Shown: in pieces, positions 369 through 31,679 of the stretch
Position numbering within the stretch: position 1 is the stretch's first letter
Layout of the letters: each line of letters opens with the position of its first letter
NCBI GenBank assembly: GCA_021777055.1
Contig: JAIQZO010000056.1
Coordinates: 1-64,000, forward strand
DNA length: 64,000 bases
Direction of reading: 5' to 3'
Source of the DNA: Candidatus Anammoxibacter sp.
GTDB lineage: Bacteria; Planctomycetota; Brocadiia; Brocadiales; Anammoxibacteraceae
The notes under the pieces: model-generated
Seen by the model: the letters and a program-made list of their open reading frames with translations, nothing else
Told to the model about the DNA's origin: nothing
Database searches by the model: none
Translations under genes and position numbers: made by a program

Positions 369-1364
369 TCATTCTGCAATATGTTCATCACCTTTGCGGG
401 TAGCTGAAGTACTCTGCCTTTCGTTGGTGAGGGATTTAAGTTGTCTGGGACTTAGCCATTCTAAAGCTCTAGACTTGTCAAATGGAACGATTGCGTTAAT
501 TTTAGTTAGTTGCATTGCAGTTAGACCGGATAGTCCTTGAAGAACTTTCCACTCCTGAATCTGTTTCTTCTGATCCGACGCTCTAGCTTTACGATATCTA
601 AAAGCATCTAATCTTTCGGTTGGAATCCCATCCGGGGCAATAATTACCTTGCTATCACTGTATACTTTCTGACCACATTTAGCACGGACTGCCTTTCTAG
701 CAAGGACATCGAAGGAAATTAAATCTTCATTGTATTTAACTAGCGTTACCTCACTGTGACCTAGCCAACCTGCTTCAGTAGAAATAACCCCTTCAATCTT
801 CCCGAGTTCTACTTCCCCGGTCCAGAAACAAGACATTGCAAATGCTGCCACAGGATAATTTTCTGAATTGCTTTCTTCGGCCAAGGCTATTAGGTATTTA
901 GGAACTGAACGTTTTAAGACTTTCAGGACATCTATCATACGGGAAGCAACACCACCTGTAGTCCAGATGCGGTCCTTTCGTGGAACAATATCGTCGCCTT
1001 CGGCACTTAAAAATCTAATAACTTGATAGTTCCACGCCGGTTCTTGAAACCTTTTAAGAAGTTCCTCGTCCTTCCCTCCATCCCTATTGTTGTAAACAAG
1101 TACAGGATAAAATTCATCCTCAATTGCCTCTACGAGTAAAGGGTTTGTCAATACGTCACCTCCGAATTTCTTACAACCTGAACAACCCGGGACTTCCTGA
1201 AAAAGGACTAACACTGGTTTGCCGGTTTTAGAACTCTTCTCAAGAGCGGTATCAAGATCACGACCCCACTGTACGGAACCGATTTCAATAGGATTTTTTC
1301 CTGCTCCCGCACTGTACTCTACAAGACCTATAACCAAAAATATCAATATTACAACTACTTTCAT
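369..1364 (-). CDS. Exported thioredoxin-fold / MsrA-like hybrid protein
   Basis: The 331-residue protein starts with a hydrophobic signal segment (residues 1-20). A thioredoxin-like domain follows (about 30-160) with a CSGC redox motif at Cys61/Cys64. The second half (about 170-240) looks like a degenerate peptide methionine sulfoxide reductase A: SCFWTGE with Cys178 corresponds to the GCFWxxE active site, followed by the usual spacing to a GxxxSEVTLVKYN stretch. The double glycine and several substrate-binding residues are changed, so reductase activity is uncertain. The C-terminal SPRQ-containing tail has no recognised function. A likely role is periplasmic thiol/disulfide or methionine-oxidation chemistry. 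A complete MsrA-MsrB fusion lies at 15835-16911. The gene is monocistronic. Confidence 0.65.
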   Translation of the reverse strand: MKVVVILIFLVIGLVEYSAGAGKNPIEIGSVQWGRDLDTALEKSSKTGKPVLVLFQEVPGCSGCKKFGGDVLTNPLLVEAIEDEFYPVLVYNNRDGGKDEELLKRFQEPAWNYQVIRFLSAEGDDIVPRKDRIWTTGGVASRMIDVLKVLKRSVPKYLIALAEESNSENYPVAAFAMSCFWTGEVELGKIEGVISTEAGWLGHSEVTLVKYNEDLISFDVLARKAVRAKCGQKVYSDSKVIIAPDGIPTERLDAFRYRKARASDQKKQIQEWKVLQGLSGLTAMQLTKINAIVPFDKSRALEWLSPRQLKSLTNERQSTSATRKGDEHIAE

Positions 1365-4279: not shown

Positions 4280-6250
4280 TTACTTAATATCCGTCTTCCT
4301 CTTACCTCTTCCGCCAGAACGCGCATCTCTAATTACAGTAACATCATTGGACCCTTTATTTACAACATAAATAATACCTAGTCTGGAATTAATTCCTATA
4401 GCAGAAGGTTTCTGCCCAGTTTTTAATTTAGTAAAAATTGTATCTGTAGAACCGTTTATGACCGTCACATCATTACTATCAGCGTTAGCAACATAAATCC
4501 GGTTGCTTGACAGACTAACGACAATTCCTACAGGGGCTTTACCTACCACTATCTCTTTAATAACCTCATTTGTTTCAGAATCAATAACTGTTACATAGTC
4601 TGAGTTCCGGTTAGCCACATACACTTTTTTTGTTTCAGGGTTTACCGCAATTCCACCTGGGCGCATACCAACGGGAACATCTGCAACAACGTTACCCTTG
4701 TCATTCAAAACACTAACGTCATTACTACTACCGTTAGTAACATAGATAAAGTTAGTACTGTTATCAATGACTATCTGCTCCGGATTACTACCCACGACAA
4801 TTGTGTTTTCCACCTCATTGTTTGATCCATTTATCACCATAATTTCATTACCTATTCTATTGGCAACATAAATCTTATTATTCTCTTTATTAACTGCAAT
4901 ACCATCTGGAGCACCTCCAACGTTTATAGTTGATATCAATTGTTTAGATTCCTCATCATAAACAGCAACCGTACCACTAGAAAAATTAGCGACATAAATC
5001 CGATTTGTTTCAGAATTTAACGCCAGATTTATGGGACCATTACCAAGTTCAACTGTTCCGCTTACAGCATTATCGTTGCCATCAATCACATGCATTTTGT
5101 CGCTCAAGATACTAACGACAAAAAGATCATTAGTATCTTCATTTACAGCAACACCTTGTGGGCCATGGTTTAACCGTATAGTTTCTACTATACCAGCTAG
5201 ATCACCATCAATAACGTCAAGACTGTCATTATCCCTGTTTGCCGTATAAACCATATTTGTTTCAGCATTAACCACTATTCCAGTCACACCGCTACCAGAT
5301 GGCACAATAGCAGCGATTGATATATTTGTATCGCCATCAACAACATCAATTCTATTGACAAAGGGATTGGTTATATAAACAAGGTTTTTCTCTTCGTTTA
5401 CCACTGTAAAGAAAGAATGATCTTCAATAGTTATGAAATCAACCACCTTATTTGTTGCGCCGTCAATAACCGATACATTATCATTTACTTCAGCCGGGTT
5501 GCATACGTAAATGGTATTCGTAACAGAATTCACAGCAACACCCATACAATCAAGACCAACATTAACCTTTTCCACTTCCGTATTGGTATCTCCTGAAATC
5601 ACACTCAATGTACTTTCCATCATGTTTGTTACGTACACCATGTTTGTTACCGTATTAACTGCAACCGCTACAGGCCCCATTCCCACTGGAACCCTTCCAA
5701 TAATCCTATCACGTCTGCCATCTATTACCGCAACATCACCACTACGAAGATTTGTCACATATATCCTATTTGTCAAGGGATTAACCTCAACTCCAGATGG
5801 CCTTTCCCCAACAAGCCTAATCTTTTTGATAACCCTATTTATTCGAGTATCAATTACCGAAACATAATTGCTTAGCAGATTTGTAACATACAGCCTTTTT
5901 GTCGTAGGATTAAATGCCGCATTTTGCGGTTCGTCACCAACATTAACCTCAGTAATGACCTTATTTGTATTACAATCTATAACTGTAACACTATCACTTT
6001 TCTCATTAACCGTATATAAAACATTTTTTTCAAAATCCATTGCAAGACCAAAAGGAAACCTTCCTCCTCCGCCTCCTGGAATTAATTTTATCGTTGACGT
6101 TACAAACGAACGAATTCCAAATAGATTTGACCTCTCAATTTGAACATTAAGTTGATCCGAAACAACAGGCCCTGCACCAACCAGGAATAAAAGCAAAAGA
6201 GAAGAGATAACCAGTGAGAATTTATAACGCAAATGTTTAATTTTAAACAT
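4280..6250 (-). CDS. Exported YVTN-family beta-propeller protein
   Basis: The 656-residue protein has an N-terminal hydrophobic export segment (about 10-30). It then consists almost entirely of repeats of about 42 residues of the form xYVTNxxSNxVTVIDxxTN, about fourteen units. This is the YVTN/SMP-30-like beta-propeller pattern. Such proteins act as extracellular or surface scaffolds, and some relatives take part in metal or nitrite chemistry; no catalytic residues can be assigned here. AGGAG lies five bases before the ATG. It lies downstream of the giant multicopper oxidase on the same strand but is separated from it by two terminators, so co-transcription is unlikely. Confidence 0.85.
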   Translation of the reverse strand: MFKIKHLRYKFSLVISSLLLLFLVGAGPVVSDQLNVQIERSNLFGIRSFVTSTIKLIPGGGGGRFPFGLAMDFEKNVLYTVNEKSDSVTVIDCNTNKVITEVNVGDEPQNAAFNPTTKRLYVTNLLSNYVSVIDTRINRVIKKIRLVGERPSGVEVNPLTNRIYVTNLRSGDVAVIDGRRDRIIGRVPVGMGPVAVAVNTVTNMVYVTNMMESTLSVISGDTNTEVEKVNVGLDCMGVAVNSVTNTIYVCNPAEVNDNVSVIDGATNKVVDFITIEDHSFFTVVNEEKNLVYITNPFVNRIDVVDGDTNISIAAIVPSGSGVTGIVVNAETNMVYTANRDNDSLDVIDGDLAGIVETIRLNHGPQGVAVNEDTNDLFVVSILSDKMHVIDGNDNAVSGTVELGNGPINLALNSETNRIYVANFSSGTVAVYDEESKQLISTINVGGAPDGIAVNKENNKIYVANRIGNEIMVINGSNNEVENTIVVGSNPEQIVIDNSTNFIYVTNGSSNDVSVLNDKGNVVADVPVGMRPGGIAVNPETKKVYVANRNSDYVTVIDSETNEVIKEIVVGKAPVGIVVSLSSNRIYVANADSNDVTVINGSTDTIFTKLKTGQKPSAIGINSRLGIIYVVNKGSNDVTVIRDARSGGRGKRKTDIK

Positions 6251-6489: not shown

Positions 6490-6665
6490 TTACTCAACCC
6501 TTATTACACCCAACTGTCCGGCCATTGCACTACGATGTGGGAAACGCCCAAGAAGTAATCTCTCGGCAAGGTACTTACTCCTGGATCAGCCTTTCTGCCT
6601 CCGTTAGAATCATTACCTTCAATCTCAATGTTAAACTTCATGCAGACATTCATAGAAATAACGTT
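6490..6665 (-). pseudogene. Decayed 3' fragment of a second multicopper-oxidase gene
   Basis: The minus strand encodes VISMNVCMKFNIEIEGND and DYFLGVS followed, after a one-base frame change, by HRSAMAGQLGVIRV. This is a near copy of residues about 2005-2055 of the adjacent 2161-residue oxidase (VISMNVGMRYDIELEGND, then EHRSAMAGQWGVIRV). The frame is broken at the HRS motif and nothing is recognisable further upstream. It is the remnant of a tandem duplicate whose terminator at 6421-6457 survives. Confidence 0.8.
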
Positions 6666-6761
6666 AAAGAGGGTTTTTATACTTTAATTCAATAACATTG
6701 CTTGTCTAAGGGGAACAATGATTTCGCAACTTATCGAACAGTTAAGTAAATTAAAAAAAAA

Positions 6762-6792
6762 CACCTGTCCTAGCAATAATGCCAAGACAGGT
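6762..6792 (-). terminator. Intrinsic terminator of the giant oxidase gene
   Basis: On the minus strand ACCTGTC pairs with GACAGGT (arms 6786-6792 and 6773-6779), with an inner GCA/TGC stem and a loop between. A run of T follows (A-run 6763-6771 on the plus strand). It sits about 35 bases after the stop codon of the oxidase. Confidence 0.75.
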
Positions 6793-6827
6793 ATTTTAAT
6801 AAATCTACTAATAATATTTACATTGTA

Positions 6828-9800
6828 TTAATTTGTAGCGGCAAATGGAAAAGTGGCATCTTGAACAAGTATTGCAGTAGAACCATCATCAGTTCTAAAT
6901 GTAATCATACCGTTCACAGAATCCAAACCAAACTTAAATTTAAAAAGTGCTTGTCCTAATGCATTAGTGGTTTTTGATACTGGTTCCACTATAACAGTCC
7001 CTGATCCACTAACAATAGCGTTAACATTTACACCTGAAGCAGGTAGTCCGTTTGGATTTCTAACTGATACAAGAACGCTCTGCAAGAAGATAGACTTTCT
7101 AAACATTTGTGGGACAGTGTTTACAGTAACGCTTTCAGGTTCTTCACCAACTCGAATAACTCCCCATTGCCCAGCCATTGCGCTACGATGTTCTGATACA
7201 CCTAAAAAATAGTCACCTGGAAATATGCTAACACCGGGATCTGCCTTACCATCACCATTAGTATCATTACCTTCCAGCTCAATGTCATAACGCATCCCAA
7301 CATTCATTGAAATAACACTTACACTCCTTGTGCCTACAGTGTCTGATTCTACACCCCAACGATGTCCGTTAACTGTGAAAGTACGGTCCTCAGAACCGTT
7401 AGCGTATATCAAACGAATTCTCGTTGGTGTTCCAGGTTCTGCATGAAAAACCAATCCTTCATTAACGTCTACAAACGGCGGACCATCTCCTGAAATACGG
7501 TAATTAATTCCTCCCAGGAAATTTTTCTGAGGTCTAAGACTTGATTGAAATAAAATTGACGCCTCATGCATAATTATTACAAATTCTCTAAATTTACCAT
7601 CCGGTGTTGTTATATCAGCAACCACATCACCCATAATACCACCTTCAGATATCCAGCTAGCGCCCTCCGGTTCTACAACAATTGCCCCGAAAAGACCTTC
7701 ATTCAGATCATTAACCGGATCAACAAGACTAGAAAGATAAACCGTACCAAGTTCTTTTTCCTGTGTTCCTGAAGCAGTTCCAGCCCAGCCTATGACACCA
7801 CCAGAAGTCCCTGCATCAGGATGAGCCAGATCATAAATAGTCTGTTTTGATGCTAACCATCGATATGTTACTGATCCAGTAGGATCTTTTGAAAACGATC
7901 CAACTGTCTGGTCACTACCTCCGTTATCCAGGTTTTTACCAACATTTACACCATAATTGATTTTAGGATCTCCTACTAACAGACCAGCAGTTAATCCAAC
8001 CCTTCTATCTACATTATCAAGTTTATGGGGATGCAATGTAACTTCTATACATTCTCCAGAAACAACACGCAAAACTAATGGCTGCGCTGTTTCTACTACA
8101 CCCGGTAACGGTTTACCAGAAGCATCAGTTCTTACAAATATACTTTTAGTTAACGGGGTAACCTTAGGATCGCTTATACTTACAGCAGTTACATCAAAAC
8201 TGTTAACAGTTTTTCCTTCACACGGATCACCACCAACTATCAGATCCTGCTTATCATCCAGAGGTTGAAGCGAACCTGAACTATCTGCAGCATTCTGATC
8301 AACCCTGAGAAGCCCCCAGCCACCAGCAGCAAAATCAGTAGCAGTTACTGGTAGATAGTAGAGATAATCACCGGAAAGATTATGTTGTTTACCTCCGTCG
8401 TCAATAAAACTGGAACCTGCTCCTCCCATCAACTCATAGGTATTAAAATAAGCAATACTATTCTGAAACGTATCTATTGGATTTGACGTTGCGCTTGATC
8501 GCTCATTTGCAAACCGCTGTCCCAAAAACCTAAAAGCGTGCATATCGTTAGTACCACCACCAAAAGCTCGTACAAGATACCTGTCGCCTGGATGCGCAAG
8601 CATTAGAGGCGTTGAAGGATCCCCACTGGCATCTCCCACATTAGAATTACTGGTAAACACCTTGTGCTGTTTTAAACCTCCAAGGCTAACCCTTCTATCA
8701 AGTGGCTCATTACGTAGTGTTATAGCACTTACACCGCTTGTTGCCGCAACTCTGTTGTTAAACGGTTCGGCATTTGTACCTTCCCCAAGCATCAAATAAA
8801 TATCATCTAACCACCAGAACACCGTCTCGCGGAAACTTGGTTCGATCTTTTTGCCAAGATCGGTATCTGAGGTTGTTACAATATCAACACTTTCCGTATT
8901 ACCGCTATCTTCAAGACGCTGAAAGCTGTTAGGATCAACATCATATAGAGAATTTGTTCTATTAAAGATCCTGTTTGTATTAAGAGTACCGTTTTTATTC
9001 GCGGTAAGCACACTTGATGAGGCCCCCATACCGGAATCATCGGTAACCAGATCACCAGATGAATCACCAGTACAATCGCCGTTAGTATGTTTTAAAAATA
9101 CCTCTGGGTTGAGCGTAACTGTAGACGGATCAGCTCCGTTAACAAGAATTTCAACTACACCACGTATGTTTTCAGCATTAGTAATACCACCACAATCGTC
9201 CGCCTCAAGGCCCGAAGGTCCCCCTCTGAAATCAACCTTACCAAACAGTGGTATGTCTTCACCTGTTTGAGGTCTTCTGTTGTTCAAAGCAGCAGTTACA
9301 TTTATCATCTTCGTTTGCTCTTCAAAATCTAACATACCAAGCGCCCATCCAAGTACAGGGTTTCCACCAAAATCAGAAACAATCCCTGCATCCTCTATAA
9401 GTGGAAAACCTTCCGGTGTTCCTGAAATAGGAAACTTACTACTATCATTTCGCAATCCATCACCAAGGTTTAAACTTACAAACAATGGATTTTGAATAAC
9501 CTTATTAGTATCAGTATACTTCTCCTGACCGGTAATCCTATCACGGTACACAGAGCCTTTAGGTTCTACAATGGTACCATCTGTGGTGCCGAGAGGAAAT
9601 GAAATAAAACCGCCTATATGAGGATGCCAAAATGCCATCATCTGTATATCAGCATACCATCTATAGTGAACGTATTCCCACGGTCTTCCACCCCATGCTA
9701 ACGCATTCTCCAAACGCTCAATGCCAATGGGATCAACACCTGCTGCATTTGCAACACCATCTATTGCATCTGGAACTAGAACATTATGAGTTGGCCCTTC

Positions 9801-12800
9801 TCCAGAGCCAAGAGCAGGAGGCCCTTCACTCTGATATTGCATCTCTTTAGCAAGGCCAAGAGCAGATTCTCCAAAGACATCCTTTGTCGCGGAAACAGCA
9901 TCTACTACCTGACCTATGTCAGTACAAGGTCTGACAGATTGTTCCCAGTTATATCCAACAATTACGCCATCCGACCCAGTGGGATCGAAATGAATCATGT
10001 GCGTGTGCATATTAAGCTTAGAAAAGTTATCCTGTATAGGGCTAAAATCAGTTGCATGGGAACGGAACTGAATATCTACACAATCACCCACATTACAACG
10101 AATAGCAAGTTGTTCAGGAGATCTTTTATGAGCAAGAATATCCACCTCATCATTTCTAAGGGAATGTACAACAGCATTAGGATCTGTGTCGCCAAACCTG
10201 TTATAGATTACACCTCTGATACCCTGATCTGAACGGCCGGAGATATCCATGGCAATAGTCGCAACAATATCATAGCTACGAACAGGGGCATTCGGAGGAC
10301 AGAGGCCATCGGGATATTTCCCTAAATCCTTCTTATTTGCAGAAAGGATAGTATCTACAGCTTGCTTTCGAGTCGCATCCGGCGTAATTCCTACAATAGT
10401 ACTCTTTTCACCCACTGTAGGTGCACCTGAATGGTTATTAGGAGGAAAAGGTGGTCTCATACCACGAAGGGCACGTAAAGACGGAAACTCCAGACGGCCA
10501 TTTAATGGGTTAAACAACATTTCTGCCCTATATCCCGGACGCGGGCCAATCAATCCACCATTTTCAGCTAATGAGGCAACTCCATCTTCCAGCTTATACA
10601 TTTTAACATCTCTATATCTCGCCCAGCGACCTTGAGGGTCTCCTATACCTTCTACAAAATTCTGAAATAGAGGCCCGTCCGGCTGATTAAGGACAAGAGG
10701 GCCGTTAATAGTATTAACAATCTTCCAATCTAAGTGGTCCCCATCGTAACCATTTATCATGCAGGATAATGCCCTTAAACCTTCAATGCTCATCTGTCCA
10801 AAAGCAGAATTAGGATCGTAAGTTCCATCCAGAGATTCACAAGGGGGATTAATCACCCAGTCAGCAGGATCGCCACCATCAGCACATGTGTCAACAGCAT
10901 TTCCATCGCGATTAACCACACCACTGTTTACATCACCCTCAACAGCAAAGGAGAGCCGCTCATCCTCATCTCCTGTACATGTATTATCGCCATCAATATC
11001 CTGGGCAACTCCGTTACGATTAGCATCAAATGGATCATAAAATGGATTTCTCCATTCAGCATCTACCATACCTCTTTCAGGTTCAAGTTTTATATCAGGA
11101 GCACCTTCTCTCTGCACACCTCTAGATGGTAACAAGTGCTTTACCCATGGTTCTATAGCTACTAGATTTTCATCCTCCACAAAATCTACACTTGGACAAG
11201 ACTTTATATTTTGCGGATCACTCTCTGCTAACATGGTTGAGCAAAACTTTTTACCATCTAGAGTTTCCCCACTTTCAAGCAACTCTTGAGAATTGACAGC
11301 TTCGACTGGCCTAGGGCGGCCAGGTAAAGCTGCAATGTTTGATTGTTTAGTGTCATAAACACGCATAAGTCGCCACATACCAATAACATAATGATCCGCT
11401 ACATGGCAATGCTCAACCCAGTCAGCAGGCCCACCATGACACGATCCGGCTCCACACTCTAATTCAAGGTCAAAAACCTCCTGTGGTGCAAGCATGGTCA
11501 CATCAACCAGATTGGTAACCGTTGTCCTGGTGTCCATTCTGTGCTTTAATAAAGCAGCATTAAGAGTGAGAGACTCCGCTAGGTTACCACTCTCACCACC
11601 TGTAGCCAACATCCCTCGCAGATATGAACGAGATCCATTTACGGGATTACCGTTCGCATCTTTCAAAATCTCGCCGGTAAGTGGATCAGCAACCATCTCA
11701 GCATAAGGCTGTTCTGCCCATCGGGTAAAACCATGTATATGAAGGACATGATGCTCTTCTCCACCACCGTGTACAATTCGCCAAACCATGGGATCGCCCA
11801 AATAAGCCTGCGGGCAAATTGTTGAAGGTTCTCCGAATGTGTAACTACTATAGGATTGAGACTCATCCTCATCAATAGCTTTCATGTATGAAAACGGATC
11901 AGAACGATAATTATATCCTTTTCCAAAATTTGTTTGGTGTTCTGAAGTACTTTCATCATCAGGATCTACACCAAGAAAACTATCCTGGTTCCAACTGGTA
12001 TTATTATTCTGCTCCTGATTCGGATCAACAGGATCAGGCGGTCCCATCATAGGCCAACCCCTTGTGCCCAGCACACCCGCAGGAGTTGAAAAAGCAAATC
12101 GCTGTCCCCAAATACTACCACCATCAGAGGAAGATTTGGCACCAGTAAATGCCCACTCGCCACTATCAAGATTCTCACCCTTTACAGGCAGAATTATGGC
12201 GCCTTGTTCCAATGCCAAAGGATCACCATGAAATTCCCTCTTTATCTCAGGGTCTCGAACTGGAAATGTCATCTTTTTTCCTGGATTATTCAATCTTCCG
12301 CCCGACATAAATATGCCGTCGTGAAAAAATGAGACAGCTTCACGAAATGAACCCTGTGGGTTATCCGTTGGAGCACTACCCATGGCAATCTTTCCATTTT
12401 TTAAACCGTTATTAAACGCGCCTGGTGAATTCAAGTAACGATCACAAGAAGGACTATCTCCCAATGTGATCCCTTCACAAGGCACTATAATAGCCTCCCA
12501 ATCACTCCATGTCAGCGGTGTTTCGCTAGTAACAAAAGACGCACCATCCACTAATGTTCCACCTGAAGCTTTCCAAGGATTTAAACTGGCAAGATACCTT
12601 GAACCTTTTGGTTCTGCAATAAGTGCACCCCAAAGTCCACTATATGAGAGGTCTATAAAGGATTCAGACATGACGCCAATATGGTATGCACCCATATTTT
12701 CAGCTTTATCTTCAATAAAGAACGTATAAGTTCGCGACTCTCCCTTTTCCAGAGATCCAGGAGTAGTATTATTGCCTACTAAGTTTCCCTCAGCATCCAG

Positions 12801-13313
12801 AACATCATACTGTGCCCTCTTAATCATTACAGATGCTTTAGGAAGGTCTTTGTTTGTCAAATTTATCTTAATACAATCTCCCACATTACATCTTATGACA
12901 AGCGGCTGTACCTCATATGAAGGTGTGTCAGTATTAATCGCCGCAGCGGCCTTGATCTTATCTGAACTATTATAAGGATTCTCTGCTGTAGGTCCCGACG
13001 GCCCAGTATAAGACTGTTTTTCCAATGCAAAAATTTTACCACCTGGAGTTTTATTACCAGATCCTGGAACCCCTGTTGCAGCATCAGAATCACCCCAGTT
13101 ATTAAATACGATATTTACAGCAATAGCAGAGATATCAAATGTTCGAACTGGCGCATCTGAAGGACAGGGATTAGCAAATACCAAACTGTCCTTAAAGCTA
13201 GTAGCAGTAAGAAACATAGAGCAGATAACCAAAACAGCAAACAACCTGTCCACCTTACTTCTCACCATAATTAATTTTCTAAACAATTTACGAATTTCAT
13301 AATTTTTCCTCAT
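6828..13313 (-). CDS. Giant exported multicopper oxidase, MnxG/MofA-like (putative metal oxidase)
   Basis: The 2161-residue protein begins with a basic stretch and hydrophobic export segment (about 22-46). Four copper motifs are visible: HHVLHIHGF (521-529), HCHVADHYVIGM (635-646), HTHMIHF (1103-1109) and WHPH (His1230/His1232). Together they form a complete type 1 plus trinuclear set. The pair normally found at the C-terminus precedes the pair normally N-terminal. Three homologous modules start at Cys50, Cys1005 and Cys1698 (C-x5-RxFDI type, then a RCNVGDCI-like strand); only the middle one keeps the copper histidines of its type. Asp/Asn-rich loops near 745-810 and 2015-2025 resemble calcium sites. 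The last ~85 residues look like a Big-1 (bacterial Ig) domain. Length and motif order recall MofA and MnxG, putative Mn(II) oxidases. The substrate here is inferred only. GGTGG lies before the ATG. Confidence 0.85.
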   Translation of the reverse strand: MRKNYEIRKLFRKLIMVRSKVDRLFAVLVICSMFLTATSFKDSLVFANPCPSDAPVRTFDISAIAVNIVFNNWGDSDAATGVPGSGNKTPGGKIFALEKQSYTGPSGPTAENPYNSSDKIKAAAAINTDTPSYEVQPLVIRCNVGDCIKINLTNKDLPKASVMIKRAQYDVLDAEGNLVGNNTTPGSLEKGESRTYTFFIEDKAENMGAYHIGVMSESFIDLSYSGLWGALIAEPKGSRYLASLNPWKASGGTLVDGASFVTSETPLTWSDWEAIIVPCEGITLGDSPSCDRYLNSPGAFNNGLKNGKIAMGSAPTDNPQGSFREAVSFFHDGIFMSGGRLNNPGKKMTFPVRDPEIKREFHGDPLALEQGAIILPVKGENLDSGEWAFTGAKSSSDGGSIWGQRFAFSTPAGVLGTRGWPMMGPPDPVDPNQEQNNNTSWNQDSFLGVDPDDESTSEHQTNFGKGYNYRSDPFSYMKAIDEDESQSYSSYTFGEPSTICPQAYLGDPMVWRIVHGGGEEHHVLHIHGFTRWAEQPYAEMVADPLTGEILKDANGNPVNGSRSYLRGMLATGGESGNLAESLTLNAALLKHRMDTRTTVTNLVDVTMLAPQEVFDLELECGAGSCHGGPADWVEHCHVADHYVIGMWRLMRVYDTKQSNIAALPGRPRPVEAVNSQELLESGETLDGKKFCSTMLAESDPQNIKSCPSVDFVEDENLVAIEPWVKHLLPSRGVQREGAPDIKLEPERGMVDAEWRNPFYDPFDANRNGVAQDIDGDNTCTGDEDERLSFAVEGDVNSGVVNRDGNAVDTCADGGDPADWVINPPCESLDGTYDPNSAFGQMSIEGLRALSCMINGYDGDHLDWKIVNTINGPLVLNQPDGPLFQNFVEGIGDPQGRWARYRDVKMYKLEDGVASLAENGGLIGPRPGYRAEMLFNPLNGRLEFPSLRALRGMRPPFPPNNHSGAPTVGEKSTIVGITPDATRKQAVDTILSANKKDLGKYPDGLCPPNAPVRSYDIVATIAMDISGRSDQGIRGVIYNRFGDTDPNAVVHSLRNDEVDILAHKRSPEQLAIRCNVGDCVDIQFRSHATDFSPIQDNFSKLNMHTHMIHFDPTGSDGVIVGYNWEQSVRPCTDIGQVVDAVSATKDVFGESALGLAKEMQYQSEGPPALGSGEGPTHNVLVPDAIDGVANAAGVDPIGIERLENALAWGGRPWEYVHYRWYADIQMMAFWHPHIGGFISFPLGTTDGTIVEPKGSVYRDRITGQEKYTDTNKVIQNPLFVSLNLGDGLRNDSSKFPISGTPEGFPLIEDAGIVSDFGGNPVLGWALGMLDFEEQTKMINVTAALNNRRPQTGEDIPLFGKVDFRGGPSGLEADDCGGITNAENIRGVVEILVNGADPSTVTLNPEVFLKHTNGDCTGDSSGDLVTDDSGMGASSSVLTANKNGTLNTNRIFNRTNSLYDVDPNSFQRLEDSGNTESVDIVTTSDTDLGKKIEPSFRETVFWWLDDIYLMLGEGTNAEPFNNRVAATSGVSAITLRNEPLDRRVSLGGLKQHKVFTSNSNVGDASGDPSTPLMLAHPGDRYLVRAFGGGTNDMHAFRFLGQRFANERSSATSNPIDTFQNSIAYFNTYELMGGAGSSFIDDGGKQHNLSGDYLYYLPVTATDFAAGGWGLLRVDQNAADSSGSLQPLDDKQDLIVGGDPCEGKTVNSFDVTAVSISDPKVTPLTKSIFVRTDASGKPLPGVVETAQPLVLRVVSGECIEVTLHPHKLDNVDRRVGLTAGLLVGDPKINYGVNVGKNLDNGGSDQTVGSFSKDPTGSVTYRWLASKQTIYDLAHPDAGTSGGVIGWAGTASGTQEKELGTVYLSSLVDPVNDLNEGLFGAIVVEPEGASWISEGGIMGDVVADITTPDGKFREFVIIMHEASILFQSSLRPQKNFLGGINYRISGDGPPFVDVNEGLVFHAEPGTPTRIRLIYANGSEDRTFTVNGHRWGVESDTVGTRSVSVISMNVGMRYDIELEGNDTNGDGKADPGVSIFPGDYFLGVSEHRSAMAGQWGVIRVGEEPESVTVNTVPQMFRKSIFLQSVLVSVRNPNGLPASGVNVNAIVSGSGTVIVEPVSKTTNALGQALFKFKFGLDSVNGMITFRTDDGSTAILVQDATFPFAATN

Positions 13314-14063: not shown

Positions 14064-14663
14064 ATGAGCAATTCAACAAAAAAAAGAAATACCAAGCCTA
14101 AGAAGCCCGATCTTTTGAATCCTGATGAATGGGTTGATAAGCACGGAGACTATCTCTTTAGTCTTGCACTAAGTCAATTACGTAACCATGCAGATGCAGA
14201 AAATGTTGTACAAGAAACATTCCTATCGGCACTTCAATCGCACGCAAACTTTTTAGGAAAATCAAATGAAAGAACATGGCTCACCGGAATACTAAAATAT
14301 AAAATCATTGATTGTATCCGTAACTCATATAATGAAGTACCTATAACATGTGTACAAGAAGATGCAGAAAAAGAAATTAATTCTTTTTTCGCAAAAGATA
14401 ATCACCATAAAAAACAACCATCAGATTGGCCAGCTCAAGCACACGAACTAATTGAAAACCAGGAATTCCGGGAAGTCTTACGTGATTGCATGGGAAACCT
14501 TACAAGGTCAGCATATGACGCTTTTCATTTACGAGAGATTAATAATTTAAAGAGCGATGAGGTTTGTAAAATATTAAACATTAGTAAAGGCAATTTCTGG
14601 GTATTGCTTCATAGAGCACGGCTACGACTTCAAAAATGTCTAGAGATTAACTGGTTTGATTAA
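14064..14663 (+). CDS. ECF-type RNA polymerase sigma factor
   Basis: The 199-residue protein has the sigma-70 region 2 pattern (about 25-95: DYLFSLALSQLRNHADAENV, then VQETF and a WLTGILKYKIID helix). Region 4 lies at about 135-190 and ends in a helix-turn-helix (SDEVCKILNISKGNFWVLLHRAR). The insert between regions 2 and 4 is long and polar. It is followed 65 bases later by a small HxxxCxxC protein, the usual sigma/anti-sigma arrangement. It is divergent from the multicopper oxidase, about 750 bases away, so it may control that gene, itself or distant genes; no target promoter can be read by eye. Confidence 0.9.
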   Translation: MSNSTKKRNTKPKKPDLLNPDEWVDKHGDYLFSLALSQLRNHADAENVVQETFLSALQSHANFLGKSNERTWLTGILKYKIIDCIRNSYNEVPITCVQEDAEKEINSFFAKDNHHKKQPSDWPAQAHELIENQEFREVLRDCMGNLTRSAYDAFHLREINNLKSDEVCKILNISKGNFWVLLHRARLRLQKCLEINWFD

Positions 14664-15834: not shown

Positions 15835-16911
15835 TTATTCAAAAAGCTCTCTGTATTTTGAATATCCGGTTTTGTACAAATTTTTTTTAGGAATAAAACG
15901 TAAAGCCGCAGAATTTATACAATAGCGTAGTCCTGTCGGAGCAGGGCCATCATTAAAAACATGCCCCAGATGGGAATCCGCATGTTTGCTTCTAACCTCA
16001 ATGACTTTCCAAAAAAGCCCCTTCTCTACCTTTTCAATAATATTCTCAGGTTCTAAAGGTTTAGTAAAGCTTGGCCATCCGGTTCCTGATTTAAACTTAT
16101 CTTGAGACGAAAACAATGGTTCACCCGACACAATATCCACATAAATACCTTCTCTTTTGTTATCCCAGTATTCATTATCAAACTGGGCTTCTGTACCATT
16201 TTCTTGTGTTACATGAAATTGTATGGGCGTTAAATCCTGTTTCAATTCTTCTCTACTTTTTTTTGTCCATTCCATTTTTTCATTGTTGTCTTCTTTTCTC
16301 GGGGGTTTATCTCCCCATATTTTTTTTAAATAAGATTTTCGACCGGATGCAGAATAATATATTTCATAATCAAGTGTTCTTTTTTTGTAATAATCTTGAT
16401 GATTCTCCTCTGCTTTGTAAAAAGGGCCAGAAGGAACAATTTCAGTTACAATCATCTTTTTAAATTTTCCTGATTGGCCAATTGAGACTTTAGATTGGAC
16501 AGCAATTTCTTTTTGCCTTTCGTCATGGTAAAAAATAACTGATCTATACTGCTTTCCTATGTCTGCAAATTGACCATTTTTCTGTGTAGGGTTAATGTTT
16601 CGCCAAAATATTTCTAACAACTTAGAGTAACTGATTCTTGCAGGATTAAATAGCACCTCTATAGCCTCGGCATGTTCTGTCATTCCTGACGCAACCTCTA
16701 TATATGTTGGATCAGTTTTCTTTCCACCCGTATATCCGGATATTACAGAATTAACACCTTCTAATTCTTGAAACGGTTTTTCCATACACCAGAAACAGCC
16801 TCCCGCAAAGGTTGCTTTCTCAAGACCGCTACCCATAAGATCCCTTTTTGAAGCATGTACAAATGTTGTCAATATCATTAATCCCGCAAAAACTATTAAT
16901 ATTTTTTTCAT
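15835..16911 (-). CDS. msrAB: Exported peptide methionine sulfoxide reductase MsrA-MsrB fusion
   Basis: The 358-residue protein has a signal peptide (residues 1-20), then MsrA (about 30-190) with GGCFWCME (catalytic Cys39), then MsrB (about 215-350) ending in [11 protein letters not shown] (catalytic Cys331). It reduces both epimers of methionine sulfoxide in proteins outside the cytoplasm. The MsrB half lacks the two CxxC zinc motifs (VSGEPLFSS in place of a CxxC form, SGTGWPSF in place of SGCGWPSF), so it is the zinc-free type. The stop codon is close to the YHS pseudogene. An electron donor is not adjacent; the exported Trx/MsrA-like hybrid at 369-1364 is a possible partner by function. 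Confidence 0.92.
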
Positions 16912-25535: not shown

Positions 25536-25865
25536 CTAAACATATTTATCTACCATACCCTTTATATCTTTTTTTGTTTTAGCACCAACCAACCTGTCTA
25601 CTTCTTTCCCTTCTTTAAACAGAATGATTGTGGGTATAGCAGAGATTCCATAAGTAGCAGGGGACTTTTGGTGGGCATCTGTATCTATTTTGCAAACTTT
25701 TACAGTATCTTTGTATTCCTCTGCAACCTCAGCAATTATTGGACCTATTAATTTACATGGTCCACACCATTCAGCCCAAAAATCGACTAAAACTGGACGG
25801 CCACCAACGTCCAAAACATCCTGATTAAAACTGCTGTCTGTTAAAACACATACATTATCTGCCAT
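25536..25865 (-). CDS. trxA: Thioredoxin
   Basis: The 109-residue cytoplasmic thioredoxin has WCGPC at Cys34/Cys37, the cis-proline segment ISAIPTIILF and the usual FWAEWCGPC core. It follows the ferredoxin-thioredoxin reductase catalytic subunit by about 100 bases on the same strand, so its reductant is probably ferredoxin. Confidence 0.95.
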   Translation of the reverse strand: MADNVCVLTDSSFNQDVLDVGGRPVLVDFWAEWCGPCKLIGPIIAEVAEEYKDTVKVCKIDTDAHQKSPATYGISAIPTIILFKEGKEVDRLVGAKTKKDIKGMVDKYV

Positions 25866-25965
25866 TTTTACCCTCCAATTTTGTTTGGTTTATAAAAAAA
25901 GATTAAAGACCTTATCCTGCTTATACAAATATTACACTATTTGCACAATATTGAGAATAGGGTTT

Positions 25966-26256
25966 TTACGTTGGAGCAATATATAAGTCACAATGACATT
26001 TACCGTCTTTTTTTACCTCTTCCTCATGGTATTCGCATGGGCAAATTATTTTATCATCTTTCTCTTCATCACCAGTAACAATCCTACAAGGACATAACTC
26101 TTTACCATACTTCTTTTTCCTTGCAAGAAGACCTTTTACTACTCTTGATATCACTTTTTCATCAGGATTAAGTATAAAATCTTTGTTTTCGGCATATTTC
26201 GTAATCTTTTCTCTAATTAACCTTTCTTCATTATTATTATCCACATTATTATCCAC
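25966..26256 (-). CDS. ftrB: Ferredoxin-thioredoxin reductase catalytic subunit
   Basis: The protein carries the family's three Cys pairs in order, CPC, CPC and CHC (positions 55-57, 72-74 and 87-89 from the GTG), which hold the 4Fe-4S cluster and the active disulfide. It passes electrons from ferredoxin to thioredoxin. A GTG at 26256 is chosen because GGAG lies six bases before it; an upstream TTG would also fit. Downstream is thioredoxin. No variable (alpha) subunit gene is adjacent, as in many anaerobes. Confidence 0.9.
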   Translation of the reverse strand: MDNNVDNNNEERLIREKITKYAENKDFILNPDEKVISRVVKGLLARKKKYGKELCPCRIVTGDEEKDDKIICPCEYHEEEVKKDGKCHCDLYIAPT

Positions 26257-26615
26257 AATAAACTCCAATATTTTCTCTGAGTTAATAGTATTCTATGCAG
26301 TCGAATATTATACTTTAGAAAAAAAGTAGTGAAAAATCTAATATTGATTTATATAATTTTATAAACTATATAAATTAATTTTCAAGAAAAATATATTTTA
26401 CAGCTTTGTATTTTATGTTTTTCCTATATAGATTCCAAATAAGCATTTCCGAATTCTCTCTCCTGAATTCTATATTCTCTATTTTGGCTGCGATTTCACA
26501 GCACGATGCCACATTAGAAATTAAGTGTTTATTGGCTGTCAATTATATCATTTAAATCTGAATTTCTATAATAGTTTTCAGATTATCTTTATTCTCTCTT
26601 TCTATAAAAACGGTA
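26257..26615. other. Intergenic, divergent from purM
   Basis: AT-rich, with a weak hairpin of the dispersed TGCGGC class near 26486-26502 (GGCTGCG, CAGC). No gene is seen. Confidence 0.45.
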
Positions 26616-27677
26616 ATGGAATCATTAAATTATAAAAATGCAGGCGTTGATATAAACAAAAAGGCAAATTTTGTAACAGATATTTACGGTCCAATGAAAA
26701 GTACATATGGTCCCCGCGTTATTGAAAACCCAAATGGGTTTGCAGGACTGTTCTCTCTAAATTACCAGGCAGATTCGGCGGTAAAAGAGTACAAAAATCC
26801 CGTGCTAGTTACATCTACTGATGGAGTGGGAACTAAATTAAAGATAGCCTTTATGTTGGACAAGCACGACACTGTTGGTATCGATCTTGTTGCAATGTGT
26901 GTTAACGATGCGATTACCCTGGGAGCAGAGATCCTCTTCTTTCTTGATTATCTGGCTAGTAGCAGGATTTTATCTGGCAAATTAAAAGAAGTTGTCAAAG
27001 GAATAACCGCAGGTTGCCATGAATCAGGTTGTGCACTTTTAGGAGGAGAAACACCGGAATTGCCAGGATTTTATAACGATGATGAATACGACCTCGCAGG
27101 TTTTGTAGTAGGTGTTGTGGAGAAAGATGAGATTATAAACGGTAAAGATATAAAACCGGATGATGTCATCATCGGTCTAAAATCAAGTGGTTTGCATAGC
27201 AACGGATATTCGTTGGCCAGAAAGGTAATCTTTGAAAAGGCCGGATTGTCGATAAATCAGTATATTGAAGAACTGAAATGTACGGTTGGAGAAGAGATGT
27301 TAAAGCCTACGAGGATATATGTTAAATCAATTAGAAGTGTACTGGATAACCCCACAACAAAAAATAGTGTTAAAGGGATTGCAAATATTACCGGTGGAGG
27401 ACTGATTGAAAATATACCAAGGATACTACCGGAAGGATGCTCTGCTTACATAAAAAAAGATGCATGGTTGCCACAAAATATATTTCCCGTCATAAAGAGA
27501 TTCGGTAATATCAGCGAAGAAGAGATGTACCGGGTGTTCAATATGGGCATAGGAATGACCTTAATCACCTCTCGGGAAAATGCCGACAATGTCTTAGAAA
27601 ATTTAATTAATTCAGGAGAAGATGCGTTAATTATCGGTAATATAAAAACCGGAGAGAGAAAAACTGTTATAAATTAG
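26616..27677 (+). CDS. purM: AIR synthase PurM
   Basis: The 353-residue enzyme closes the imidazole ring in purine synthesis (FGAM to AIR, ATP-dependent). Family motifs visible include STDGVGTKLK, GIDLVAMCVND, GGETPELPG and the VANITGGGL-like segment near 263 (IANITGGGLIENIPR). Full length. It overlaps the convergent pssA stop by 11 bases. Confidence 0.97.
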   Translation: MESLNYKNAGVDINKKANFVTDIYGPMKSTYGPRVIENPNGFAGLFSLNYQADSAVKEYKNPVLVTSTDGVGTKLKIAFMLDKHDTVGIDLVAMCVNDAITLGAEILFFLDYLASSRILSGKLKEVVKGITAGCHESGCALLGGETPELPGFYNDDEYDLAGFVVGVVEKDEIINGKDIKPDDVIIGLKSSGLHSNGYSLARKVIFEKAGLSINQYIEELKCTVGEEMLKPTRIYVKSIRSVLDNPTTKNSVKGIANITGGGLIENIPRILPEGCSAYIKKDAWLPQNIFPVIKRFGNISEEEMYRVFNMGIGMTLITSRENADNVLENLINSGEDALIIGNIKTGERKTVIN

Positions 27678-28410
27678 ACAAAGTAACGTCCACATGCTCA
27701 ACCGGATTGTCTTTTTTTTTGAGCCCTAATACGCCACAAACTATAACATAAGCCGAAAGACTTATGGATAATGCCAGTCTGGGGTTTATAACAAATAAGA
27801 CAACGGCACCCAGCATCTCTAAACTGAAAGGAAAGACCCCCTGTTTTATACTTATCTTTGACATAATGTTTAAGAATTTCAATCTGCTGACCATGAATAA
27901 ACCTAACACAAATGTAACAGGTAGTATAAACCCCAAAACAGTATTTATGCCAAAATTTATACTCAGATAACTGTGAAGCAGAACAAGGTGTGCCAATGTA
28001 CCACCAGAGATGGTTGAGGGTAAACCTGTAAAATAGCTATTTGGTTTTTCACTACCGGAACTTTCCGTATTAAACTTTGCCAGGCGCATTGCTGTGCATG
28101 AGAGATAGAAAAAACATATGGGCCAAATAATGAATGGATAGGTATCATTACATACTTGGCCAACTAGAATTGCAGGCGCAACACCAAAAACTACAATATC
28201 TATAATTGAATCCAATTGTGTACCAAAATTGCTACTTGTTTTTGTCATGCGTGCCAGTTTGCCATCCAGTGTATCACATATCATCGATATTATGATCAGC
28301 CATGCAGCCATGTCATAATTTCCTCTTATTGCACTTAAAATGCAAACAAAACCACAGCAAAGACTTACCATGCTGGCAGTTACAGGTGCTAAATTTCTGA
28401 TTTTCAACAA
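27667..28410 (-). CDS. pssA: CDP-diacylglycerol-serine O-phosphatidyltransferase
   Basis: The 247-residue membrane enzyme has the CDP-alcohol phosphotransferase motif: CDTLDGKLAR, then FGTQLDSIID. About eight hydrophobic segments follow. It makes phosphatidylserine, the precursor of phosphatidylethanolamine. The other possibility in the family is a phosphatidylglycerophosphate synthase, but the motif spacing and length fit PssA. No decarboxylase is adjacent. Confidence 0.85.
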   Translation of the reverse strand: MLKIRNLAPVTASMVSLCCGFVCILSAIRGNYDMAAWLIIISMICDTLDGKLARMTKTSSNFGTQLDSIIDIVVFGVAPAILVGQVCNDTYPFIIWPICFFYLSCTAMRLAKFNTESSGSEKPNSYFTGLPSTISGGTLAHLVLLHSYLSINFGINTVLGFILPVTFVLGLFMVSRLKFLNIMSKISIKQGVFPFSLEMLGAVVLFVINPRLALSISLSAYVIVCGVLGLKKKDNPVEHVDVTLSNL

Positions 28411-29065
28411 ACACGCTCCATAAAAAAATATACACGCAATTAATGGTACAAATAGTCAATTATAAATATAATTTCCTTGAAGTGCAAGATTAAATATAGA
28501 AGATAAATTTAATGGGCTGAAGTAGCCAAAACTATTGACAGGAAAAAGTTTAATTTACGAGAGTAGGGAAGTAAATTAAATGTGCGGATGATACTTCGTT
28601 AAGGAACGTGCATGTAATAATTTATACATGTAACACTAGCAATTTGAACAAATCTGACGTAAATCTGCGCATTACATGCACAATCTATTACAGGCTCGCA
28701 CCTAAAGGCCTGTTTGCAAAGACTATATACAGGATTTATTTATTGCGGTTAGTCATTAATAGCTTAATGTAGCAGACGTACCAATATATGATACATTCAC
28801 CTCTTCGCTCACGGCCATCAATGTATGTTTTTTTCCTTGACATAAACACCCGCATTTGATACGCTTTTCCTTTGTTTTTTGGTTTCATATGCTTAAATAG
28901 CCAGCATCTTTATTATTAAATACGATGAAAGGAGGTGGCAATAGTTTTTACCATAGATTAAAGTGCCGTTTTGTATGGACTTTGATTAATAGTACAGTAT
29001 GTATGTTATCAATAAATAATAAAGAATTAATTATTAATATGATTTAAAGGTATAGGAGATTTTTT
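28411..29065. other. Intergenic upstream of the aquaporin
   Basis: No gene is seen. GTGCATGTAAT (28608-28618) and its perfect complement (28671-28681) flank 52 bases. A GGAGGTG site near 28931 is not followed by a useful start, and only a 40-codon coincidental frame passes it. Confidence 0.45.
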
Positions 29066-29755
29066 ATGGATGCGTATAGAAGATATGTATCAGAGTTTTT
29101 AGGAACGTTTGCCCTGATATTCATAGGATCGGGTAGTGTATGTGCTGATTATTATTTAACACAGGCAGGATCTCCAGGGTTTGGACTACTTGGTATTGCT
29201 ATTGCTTTTGGTTTTGTTGTTGTTGCCGTAGCGTATTCACTTGGTTATATTTCCGGTGCACATATAAACCCGGCCGTTACCGTTTCAATGGTGGTATCTA
29301 ATAGAATGGATGCACAAACCGGATTTATGTATATTGTTTCACAGTTAAGTGGAGCAGCAGTTGGTGGATACTTGCTTAAGATGTTGTTTCCTGCAGCTAT
29401 GGCTGTAAACCTCGGAACGTGCGATCTTGGTGGTGGTGTATCAATAATGCAGGCGCTTATTATGGAAGCGATCATTACATTTATTCTGGTTTTTGTTGTA
29501 TACGCAACCGTTATAGATAAAAGAGCAACTCCTGCTCTTGCCGGATTAGCAATTGGATTAGTTGTGCTTTTTGGTGTTATGGTTGGTGGAACAATTAGTG
29601 GCGGATCAATGAATCCTGCCCGTGTATTTGGCCCTGCTTTAGCTTCTGGACATTTCATTAATCACTATGTCTGGTGGTTAGGTCCTATTGCTGGTGGTGT
29701 TATGGCCGGATTGGTGTATGAAAACTTTTTTGCAGAAAAAGACAAAAAGAAATAA
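29066..29755 (+). CDS. Aquaporin / MIP-family channel
   Basis: The 229-residue protein has six membrane segments and both NPA boxes: INPAVTVS near residue 71 and MNPARVFGP near 184. It passes water or small neutral solutes. Length and the AxGxFxL-type N-terminus (EFLGTFALIFIGSGS) suit the AqpZ/AqpN branch; the residues do not allow a firm choice between water and glycerol selectivity. TAGGAGA precedes the ATG. A strong terminator follows. Confidence 0.93.
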   Translation: MDAYRRYVSEFLGTFALIFIGSGSVCADYYLTQAGSPGFGLLGIAIAFGFVVVAVAYSLGYISGAHINPAVTVSMVVSNRMDAQTGFMYIVSQLSGAAVGGYLLKMLFPAAMAVNLGTCDLGGGVSIMQALIMEAIITFILVFVVYATVIDKRATPALAGLAIGLVVLFGVMVGGTISGGSMNPARVFGPALASGHFINHYVWWLGPIAGGVMAGLVYENFFAEKDKKK

Positions 29756-29798
29756 CTACGATTATTTGTTTCTTAAGATTTTTATGATGTAAATTATA

Positions 29799-29840
29799 AG
29801 CAGGGTTAACATCAAACAATGTTAACCCTGCTTTTTTTTT
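29799..29840 (+). terminator. Intrinsic terminator after the aquaporin gene
   Basis: A perfect 14-bp stem (AGCAGGGTTAACAT, loop CAAACA) is followed by nine T. It separates the aquaporin gene from obg. Confidence 0.95.
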
Positions 29841-29866
29841 CAATTTTAGGATTTCTTGACTTACTT

Positions 29867-30865
29867 ATGTTTTTAGATGAAGCTGTTATATATGTTAAGG
29901 GTGGTGACGGAGGAAATGGGTGCGTCAGTTTCCGGCGTGAAAAATACATACCCAAAGGTGGACCAAATGGTGGCAAAGGTGGAAATGGCGGGAGCGTAAT
30001 CCTTCGTGTCAGTGAAGAAAAAGACACTCTTATGGATCTGTCATCAAGAATGGAGTATGTGGCAGAGAATGGGAGGCCCGGAAGTGGTGATAATAAAACC
30101 GGCAAAAGTGGGGAAGATCTTGTAATCGATATACCAACCGGAACTATGGTCAAGGACAAAAAGACTGGTTGTATTTTAAAAGATTTTACTATTGATGGCG
30201 ACTCGTTGATTATTGCAAAAGGCGGACGTGGCGGGCATGGAAACAAACATTACGCCACATCAATCAACCGTACCCCTAGAATTGCACAGGATGGAACACC
30301 CGGGGCAGAACGGTTAATAAAACTTGAGTTAAAACTAATTGCGGATGCAGGTCTTGTAGGATTGCCGAATGCAGGAAAATCAACATTACTTTCCAGGATG
30401 TCATCCGTGCATCCCAAAATAGGTAATTATCCGTTTACAACCCGATACCCTCAGCTAGGAGTTGTTGATCTTGACGATTTTTCGCGGTTTGTTGTTGCTG
30501 ATATTCCAGGCTTAATCGAGGGAGCACATAATGGAACCGGTTTAGGCGACGAATTTCTCCGACACATAGAAAGGACAAAGATACTTGTACATTTGCTTGA
30601 TATTGCACCTATTGACAATACAGATCCGATCAATTCATATTTTACCATTAGAAAGGAATTAAACCTTTTTAATCCAAAACTTAGTGAAAAGCCAGAGATT
30701 GTTGTAGTAAATAAGATTGACCTGCTTGATGAAACAACCGGCAAGGAGAGATTAACGGAAATAGAAGAAAGGTTGTCAAAAAAAATATATCCTATCTCTG
30801 CTGTAACTGGCAAAAATATATCACAATTAATAAACGTAATTAAACACTCTCTCTCTGAGATATAA
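29867..30865 (+). CDS. obg: GTPase Obg
   Basis: The 332-residue protein has the glycine-rich Obg fold (about 1-155, GGDGGNGCVSFRREKYIPKG), then a G domain with GLPNAGKSTLLSR, DIPGLIEGA and NKIDL. It is a 50S-linked GTPase used in ribosome maturation. The ATG at 29867 gives the conserved MFLDEAVIYV start; an upstream start inside the terminator is rejected. The C-terminal OCT domain is absent, as in many short Obg proteins. Confidence 0.95.
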   Translation: MFLDEAVIYVKGGDGGNGCVSFRREKYIPKGGPNGGKGGNGGSVILRVSEEKDTLMDLSSRMEYVAENGRPGSGDNKTGKSGEDLVIDIPTGTMVKDKKTGCILKDFTIDGDSLIIAKGGRGGHGNKHYATSINRTPRIAQDGTPGAERLIKLELKLIADAGLVGLPNAGKSTLLSRMSSVHPKIGNYPFTTRYPQLGVVDLDDFSRFVVADIPGLIEGAHNGTGLGDEFLRHIERTKILVHLLDIAPIDNTDPINSYFTIRKELNLFNPKLSEKPEIVVVNKIDLLDETTGKERLTEIEERLSKKIYPISAVTGKNISQLINVIKHSLSEI

Positions 30866-30920
30866 AGAAGCAAAATCTCTCTTTTTCATTTCCGGTACAA
30901 ACCCTTAAAGCTTTACAATA

Positions 30921-31679
30921 GTGACGATCAAGATACTTGCCGTAGATATAGGCAATACAAACATAAGCATAGGACTTTTTGACAACGGAACCATTGTTAA
31001 CCATTCCAGGATTGCAGTTTCCCACTTAAATCAAAAAGAAGATCTGCCAGAAACATGGTGGAAGGATTTAGATTTTACCAGGATAAAAGATGTTGTGACT
31101 GCATCGGTAAACCCTGAAGCAGAATCACTGTTTTCTAATTGGTTGAAGAATAAATACAATAAGAAACCTATTGCGATTGGAATAGATGTACAACCCCATA
31201 TTACCATGAAGGTTGATAACTATGAAACGGTTGGAATAGACCGTATATTAAATGTTATTGCAGGTTACCAACTTATGGGCAGGGGTACAATTGTTATAGA
31301 TTTAGGAACTGCAATCACATTTGATATTGTTTCTGATTCCGGAGACTTTATTGGAGGCGTAATATCTCCTGGAACCAATATGTGTTCCAAGGCATTGAAC
31401 GAACAGACCAGTAAACTACCATATGTGCCCATTAAAAGAGTAGAAAAAGCTTTGGGAAAGGATACACATTCTGCTATTTTGTCTGGTATTTATTGGGGAA
31501 CCATCGGATCTATCAATAAAATAGTTGAGGTGTTATCAAATGAAATCAATTTTAAACCGGCAGTTATTGCTACAGGAGGGGGGGCAGTGCTGTTTGCGGA
31601 GCATATAAAGGGACTAGAAAAGACATTCCCGTTATTAACTCTCGAAGGAATAAAGATAGTGTATGACAAAATTAATTAA
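30921..31679 (+). CDS. coaX: Type III pantothenate kinase CoaX
   Basis: The 252-residue enzyme phosphorylates pantothenate, the first step to coenzyme A. It has the ASKHA phosphate motifs DIGNTNISIGLF, VGIDRILNV and DLGTAITFD. It starts with GTG. It follows obg by 55 bases and may share its transcript. Its stop overlaps the convergent TPR gene by four bases. Confidence 0.94.
   Translation: MTIKILAVDIGNTNISIGLFDNGTIVNHSRIAVSHLNQKEDLPETWWKDLDFTRIKDVVTASVNPEAESLFSNWLKNKYNKKPIAIGIDVQPHITMKVDNYETVGIDRILNVIAGYQLMGRGTIVIDLGTAITFDIVSDSGDFIGGVISPGTNMCSKALNEQTSKLPYVPIKRVEKALGKDTHSAILSGIYWGTIGSINKIVEVLSNEINFKPAVIATGGGAVLFAEHIKGLEKTFPLLTLEGIKIVYDKIN

Follow-up and report, generated by a model that had tools for sequence, protein, structure and literature searches.

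Which substrate would a giant multicopper oxidase (MCO) act on in an anammox bacterium? The question is raised by a 64,000-nucleotide stretch of DNA, referred to here as the window (positions 1–64,000 of contig JAIQZO010000056.1, GenBank assembly GCA_021777055.1), which belongs to a 5.94 Mb genome from the order of the anammox bacteria. A single, intact open reading frame at 6828–13313 on the minus strand encodes an MCO of 2161 amino acids with six cupredoxin domains; the plus strand across the same interval is riddled with stop codons. Judged from its sequence, the protein is a deep new branch of the MnxG-type enzymes, that is, a known kind of enzyme in an unexpected host. It is probably an exported, competent oxidase of MnxG/MofA architecture that most likely acts on Mn(II), a reading that is given a probability of about 0.6. 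That the protein is a competent oxidase of this architecture appears close to certain, and Mn(II) would seem slightly better than an even bet as a main substrate.

Copper ligands and their order

Four copper-binding motifs are found in the protein, each at the residues given in a preliminary description of the window that was made without database searches: H521-H522-V-L-H525-I-H527-G-F, H635-C-H637-V-A-D-H641-Y-V-I-G-M646, H1103-T-H1105-M-I-H1108-F and W1229-H1230-P-H1232. The first corresponds to copper site III (11733–11750, minus strand, as are all features of the gene), which aligns with HVFHYH of MnxG and supplies H522 for type 1 copper and H525 and H527 for type 2/3 copper. The second is site IV (11376–11411), with H635 and H637, the type 1 ligands C636 and H641 and the axial M646. 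Motif position and conservation identify H1103 and H1105 as site I (9999–10007) and H1230 and H1232 as site II (9618–9626). All 12 canonical ligands are present (ten histidines and one cysteine for type 1, 2 and 3 copper, plus M646) and, as read from these motifs, they suffice to build a type 1 copper site and a trinuclear cluster.

Across an alignment of 84 relatives drawn from about ten phyla, none of the 12 ligand positions varies; H641 and M646 were part of one of the two patterns used to find relatives, so the invariance of these two is partly conditioned, with the other ligands unaffected. All are likewise kept, despite deep divergence, in the four paralogs of the host genome, in the ortholog of Candidatus (Ca.) Anammoxibacter OFTM214 and in a relative from Nitrospirales. 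In a sliding comparison with the closest paralog, that on contig C93, codons 450–600 (site III) and 1050–1200 (site I) gave dN values of 0.006 and 0.003, among the lowest along the gene. Along the protein the sites follow the order III, IV, I, II. The preliminary description had drawn attention to this reversal, with III and IV ahead of I and II, and the same order is seen in the colinear alignment with Bacillus MnxG (PDB 9bxa). Because the ligands are invariant in all 84 relatives and the alignment is colinear, the motifs are not due to chance.

Domain architecture

Comparison of segments of the MCO by hhalign relates cupredoxin domain D1 to D3 and D5 (probabilities of 99.5–99.8%) and D2 to D4 and D6 (99.4–99.5%). 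On this evidence the protein is made of three fused two-cupredoxin modules, an Asp-rich linker and a C-terminal extension. D1 (residues 50–262; 12528–13166) is followed by D2 (residues 263–670; 11304–12527), which bears sites III and IV. The linker (residues 671–1003; 10305–11303), which is unlike the other domains, leads to D3 (residues 1004–1290; 9444–10304), the bearer of sites I and II. D4 (residues 1470–1692; 8238–8906), D5 (residues 1696–1886; 7656–8228) and D6 (residues 1887–2057; 7143–7655) are without the copper set. D6 is the sole region matched by the Pfam Cu-oxidase family (PF00394), marginally over its gathering score (21.2 versus 21 bits). Residues 1–47 (LVFA/N; 13173–13313), read by eye, form a likely Sec signal peptide, and the protein is likely to be exported. 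The C-terminal extension (6831–7142) has a weak Big_1-like match (17.8 bits, below the cut-off). A similar segment recurs in about ten other frames on several contigs of the host genome, possibly as a shared surface module.

Three homologous modules had been proposed in the preliminary description and are borne out by hhalign; the accompanying statement that only the middle module keeps its copper histidines does not hold, as sites III and IV lie in module 1 and sites I and II in module 2. The copper set therefore straddles the junction between these modules, and, going by the linear alignment with 9bxa, the active cleft would be that between D2 and D3, as in Bacillus MnxG. The three modules can be regarded as the covalently joined counterpart of a two-domain laccase trimer, with a single inter-module cleft out of three that would be active. 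Because a fused trimer may keep its active cleft at any of its three interfaces, the reversed order of sites needs no rearrangement within domains.

Relationship to MnxG, MofA and laccases

The best solved relative of the protein is Bacillus MnxG (9bxa), with E-values of 5.5e-55 by sequence and 6.3e-66 by profile, and H641 aligns with residue 340 of that structure, which was deposited as the H340A mutant. The sole strong NCBIfam match is likewise MnxG (NF041487, 4.5e-23), and MnxG ranks ahead of the laccase, CueO and ceruloplasmin families. Together with the identical copper order, these matches substantiate the link to MnxG/MofA made in the preliminary description. A plain laccase or CueO is ruled out by the motif order and the best matches. 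Membership of the MnxG equivalog is ruled out by score: the protein reaches 80.2 bits against a cut-off of 3100, where Pseudomonas MnxG scores 3919.9 bits and a Ca. Jettenia MCO 1482 bits.

A genome scan for relatives gave at least 442 related stretches, from which 80 loci were kept. In a tree of 84 sequences the anammoxibacterial MCOs and one metagenome-assembled genome (MAG) of Nitrospirales (L044) form a clade with a Shimodaira–Hasegawa-like approximate likelihood ratio support (SH-aLRT) of 100 and a stem of 1.57. This clade falls outside the group that holds the Leptothrix MofA-type, Pseudomonas MnxG, Methanoperedens and Jettenia sequences. A mixture-model tree of the copper-core columns recovers it with 100/100 support and a stem of 4.07; long branches make the exact root of the trees unsafe, and Bacillus MnxG is not among their sequences. 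Besides the host, the only members of the clade among the matches listed are OFTM214 and the Nitrospirales MAG. No further close homolog outside the host genome was found in 392 sampled genomes of the phylum, a sample that lacks some members of the family.

Gene neighbourhood

Downstream of the MCO gene, on the same strand, lies a gene for a YNCE/lactonase-type beta-propeller protein of 656 amino acids (4280–6250), whose homologs adjoin the MCO genes of contig C48 (52% identical) and of OFTM214 (50%). In the window the propeller stands alone beside the MCO, and the genes for a cytochrome c/binding protein, a propeller and SCO1 are found on contig C42. OFTM214 has a complete mnxG-type set in the order MCO, propeller, CusF/cytochrome c/Peripla_BP protein, propeller and SCO1. 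The Nitrospirales contig has the order MCO, CusF/cytochrome c/binding protein (41% identical over 892 amino acids) and propeller.

The mnxG operon of P. putida GB-1 comprises mnxG, a YVTN beta-propeller gene, two SCO1 genes, a gene for an ABC-type binding protein with cytochrome c, and SurA (PMC11409713; also PMC8218464). Pfam recovers this set in Pseudomonas (L116) and its core in Jettenia and an acidobacterium. Of the 73 loci with room for it, 49 have the propeller immediately 3' of the MCO and in the same orientation, and 35 of 60 have a cytochrome c/binding-protein gene placed in this way. Across 80 relatives a propeller gene occurs within 3 kb downstream 47 times and upstream once, and the cytochrome c/binding-protein gene, within a fixed distance, 37 times downstream and four times upstream. 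The neighbourhood is the best functional evidence, because the deep anammox clade retains partner genes that accompany an Mn oxidase of proven function, and it is this mnxG-type setting that suggests a metal oxidase.

Several further observations concern the surroundings of these genes. The cassette of propeller and cytochrome c/Peripla_BP_6 genes follows giant MCOs in many phyla (L043–L122), a wider range than that of the operon published for Pseudomonas. In the window, a gene for an ECF-type sigma factor (14064–14663, plus strand), which may be a regulator, lies upstream of the MCO gene in divergent orientation. Beside the MCO in two genomes are exported-looking proteins of 777 and 797 amino acids, 59% identical and with no Pfam hit (L030:5359–7689, plus strand; L031:3520–5910, minus strand).

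Paralogs in the host genome

Four intact MCO genes are present in the host, on contigs C66 (the window), C93 (93% identical), C48 (84%) and C14 (62–66%); that of C14, at 25807–31803, stops short of the C-terminal extension. OFTM214 carries a single ortholog, 66–68% identical. Among the three closest paralogs dN/dS is 0.11–0.13, with dS saturated for the others. The open frames and the dN/dS of about 0.12 of these three rule out pseudogenes, and the substitution pattern shows purifying selection.

A strong intrinsic terminator, a hairpin with a T run, lies directly 3' of the MCO gene (6758–6797, minus strand), and such a hairpin trails every paralog and the OFTM214 ortholog. Between this terminator and the propeller gene are the decayed remains of the 3' end of a further MCO copy (6503–6662, minus strand), with 73–74% nucleotide identity to the codons around residues 2000–2053. 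They suggest that the present gene arrived next to what was left of an earlier copy. Further small MCO fragments are found on contigs C105 and C111.

Host and access to oxygen

The host belongs to the family Ca. Anammoxibacteraceae, in which OFTM214, the sole other member among the genomes searched, has also been placed (PMC12998229). Hydrazine synthase alpha (HZS_alpha) is encoded on contig C14 at 726–1040, which confirms the anammox host that had been surmised from the window. As this contig also bears an MCO paralog and OFTM214 has an ortholog, assignment of the MCO to this host through contamination is ruled out.

An MCO of this kind had been called unexpected in an anaerobe. This view is softened by the presence of relatives in Jettenia, Methanoperedens, Geobacter, Pelobacter and Desulfobacterales, and by the cytochrome bd of the host: its genome encodes a true cydA next to a gene of the size of cydB, and therefore a route to O2 exists. 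A search for the COX1 family (heme-copper oxidases) gave no match in the host genome or OFTM214, compared with matches, some of them weak, in every one of the 57 further genomes of the order that were searched. OFTM214 itself comes from a subsea tunnel biofilm bearing Mn oxide; a previous 16S survey of this biofilm had detected none of the canonical heterotrophic Mn oxidisers (PMC11442690).

The MCO region is flanked by genes for an MsrA–MsrB fusion with a signal-like N-terminus (15835–16911, minus strand) and for a thioredoxin-like protein that in part matches MsrA (369–1364, minus strand). Elsewhere in the order, an anammox genome has an encapsulin-type shell gene adjoining one for a fused Cu-oxidase/multihaem protein (L035:2546–6307, plus strand); anammox encapsulins have already been described (PMC6934571).

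Proposed function and alternatives

In the proposed mechanism the type 1 copper in D2 (H522, C636, H641, M646) would accept single electrons from the substrate. These would pass to the trinuclear cluster common to D2 (H525, H527, H635, H637) and D3 (H1103, H1105, H1230, H1232), at which O2 would be reduced to water. Copper would be loaded by SCO1/CusF-type partners and the enzyme would be located at the cell surface. The substrate is most likely Mn(II), perhaps with Fe(II) as well, in a microoxic niche, and the benefit could be oxide formation, removal of O2 or both. More tentatively, the Anammoxibacteraceae as a family may oxidise Mn(II) by means of a private, multiplied MnxG-like branch, which would tie anammox to Mn oxide formation at oxic–anoxic interfaces, possibly with electrons also delivered to cytochrome c.

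Several points weigh against Mn(II) oxidation by this enzyme. MCOs are promiscuous, as has been stated for tunnel MAGs (PMC11995701). All Mn oxidases tested so far are very distant from this clade (80 versus 3100 bits for MnxG; a stem of 1.6–4 changes per site), and over such a distance the substrate may have become a different one. The SCO1 and cytochrome c/binding-protein partners are on a separate contig of the host genome (C42), and in the window a terminator lies between the MCO and the propeller. Two AlphaFold models (residues 112–1300 and 445–1290, with 69–70 homologs) do not bring the four motifs together; their pLDDT of 50 and pTM of 0.54 and 0.48 make the placement of domains unreliable. 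For both of these low-confidence models the top Foldseek match is 9bxa, followed by two-domain laccases.

The first two of these points also favour an enzyme of the same architecture that in the cell would oxidise Cu(I), Fe(II) or some organic reductant, its copies serving at the cell surface to detoxify or acquire copper or iron and not to oxidise Mn. The copper-handling CusF and SCO1 domains of the neighbourhood would suit this role, but the set of propeller, SCO1 and cytochrome c/binding protein matches the Pseudomonas mnxG operon, and six domains with sites III and IV first point to MnxG/MofA rather than the CueO type. This alternative is the strongest and is nevertheless rather unlikely. 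An improbable explanation, which shares ground with Mn oxidation and can hardly be told from it by sequence, is that the MCO is mainly an extracytoplasmic O2 sink that shields the O2-sensitive anammox cell at oxic–anoxic interfaces, the metal being a mere electron shuttle. The missing COX1-family match, the cytochrome bd, the nearby MsrAB with its signal-like start and the four MCO copies in one genome are all in keeping with it. Electrons might instead leave the type 1 copper for the cytochrome c/binding-protein partner or a nitrogen oxide, making the MCO independent of O2. The fusion of a cytochrome c domain to a periplasmic binding protein downstream of so many MCOs and the relatives in anaerobe lineages would fit, but the trinuclear O2 site is fully conserved and the cassette is also present in aerobes such as Pseudomonas, which leaves this idea very little credence. 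Least credible of all is a structural protein of the surface or matrix, in an S-layer or biofilm, whose cupredoxin scaffold would bear vestigial copper sites: the great length of the protein, its likely signal peptide, the weak Big_1-like match at its C-terminus, the multiple copies and the strong terminators are set against 12 ligands invariant in the four paralogs and in the OFTM214 and Nitrospirales sequences, and dN values in the lowest range over sites III and I.

If oxidation of Mn(II) is indeed the function, anammox bacteria would be producers of Mn oxide and not users only, and a single organism would join the nitrogen cycle to that of manganese. The MCO also adds to the MnxG-type enzymes a deep branch with full copper sites, useful for tracing the determinants of metal specificity, and the Pseudomonas mnxG operon becomes one instance of a cassette spread across many phyla.

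Comparison with known systems

Bacillus MnxG (9bxa, the Mnx complex with H340A) shares the site order of the window MCO and is colinear with it over D1–D3. It has 1227 residues versus 2161, the window protein having in addition the long Asp-rich linker between D2 and D3 and the C-terminal extension, and identity is low. Pseudomonas MnxG (NF041487; L116) has the copper order, ligands and beta-propeller, SCO1 and cytochrome c/binding-protein neighbours of the MCOs described here, whereas the window MCO lies in a separate deep clade far under the equivalog cut-off.

The MofA-type MCO of Leptothrix (L066 and L068, a label based on organism and length, with no curated model) also has an identical order and ligands, and L066 adjoins propeller and cytochrome/binding-protein genes; it belongs to the other clade and its partner genes are divergently oriented. 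The giant MCO of Ca. Jettenia (G024, G035, G047) likewise has an anammox host and a cassette of MCO, propeller, SCO1 and cytochrome c/binding protein, but falls in the main MnxG/MofA clade as a separate lineage, about 28% identical to the window MCO. In G047 the Jettenia cytochrome/binding-protein gene is apparently split (L119, frames of 309 and 245 amino acids); the other Jettenia loci are L032, L033 and L034.

The two-domain small laccases (SLAC/Ssl1) have the same module as D1 and D2 of the window MCO. Their chains, of about 270 residues each, are separate and assemble into homotrimers, whereas in the window MCO three such modules are fused and a single copper cleft is retained.

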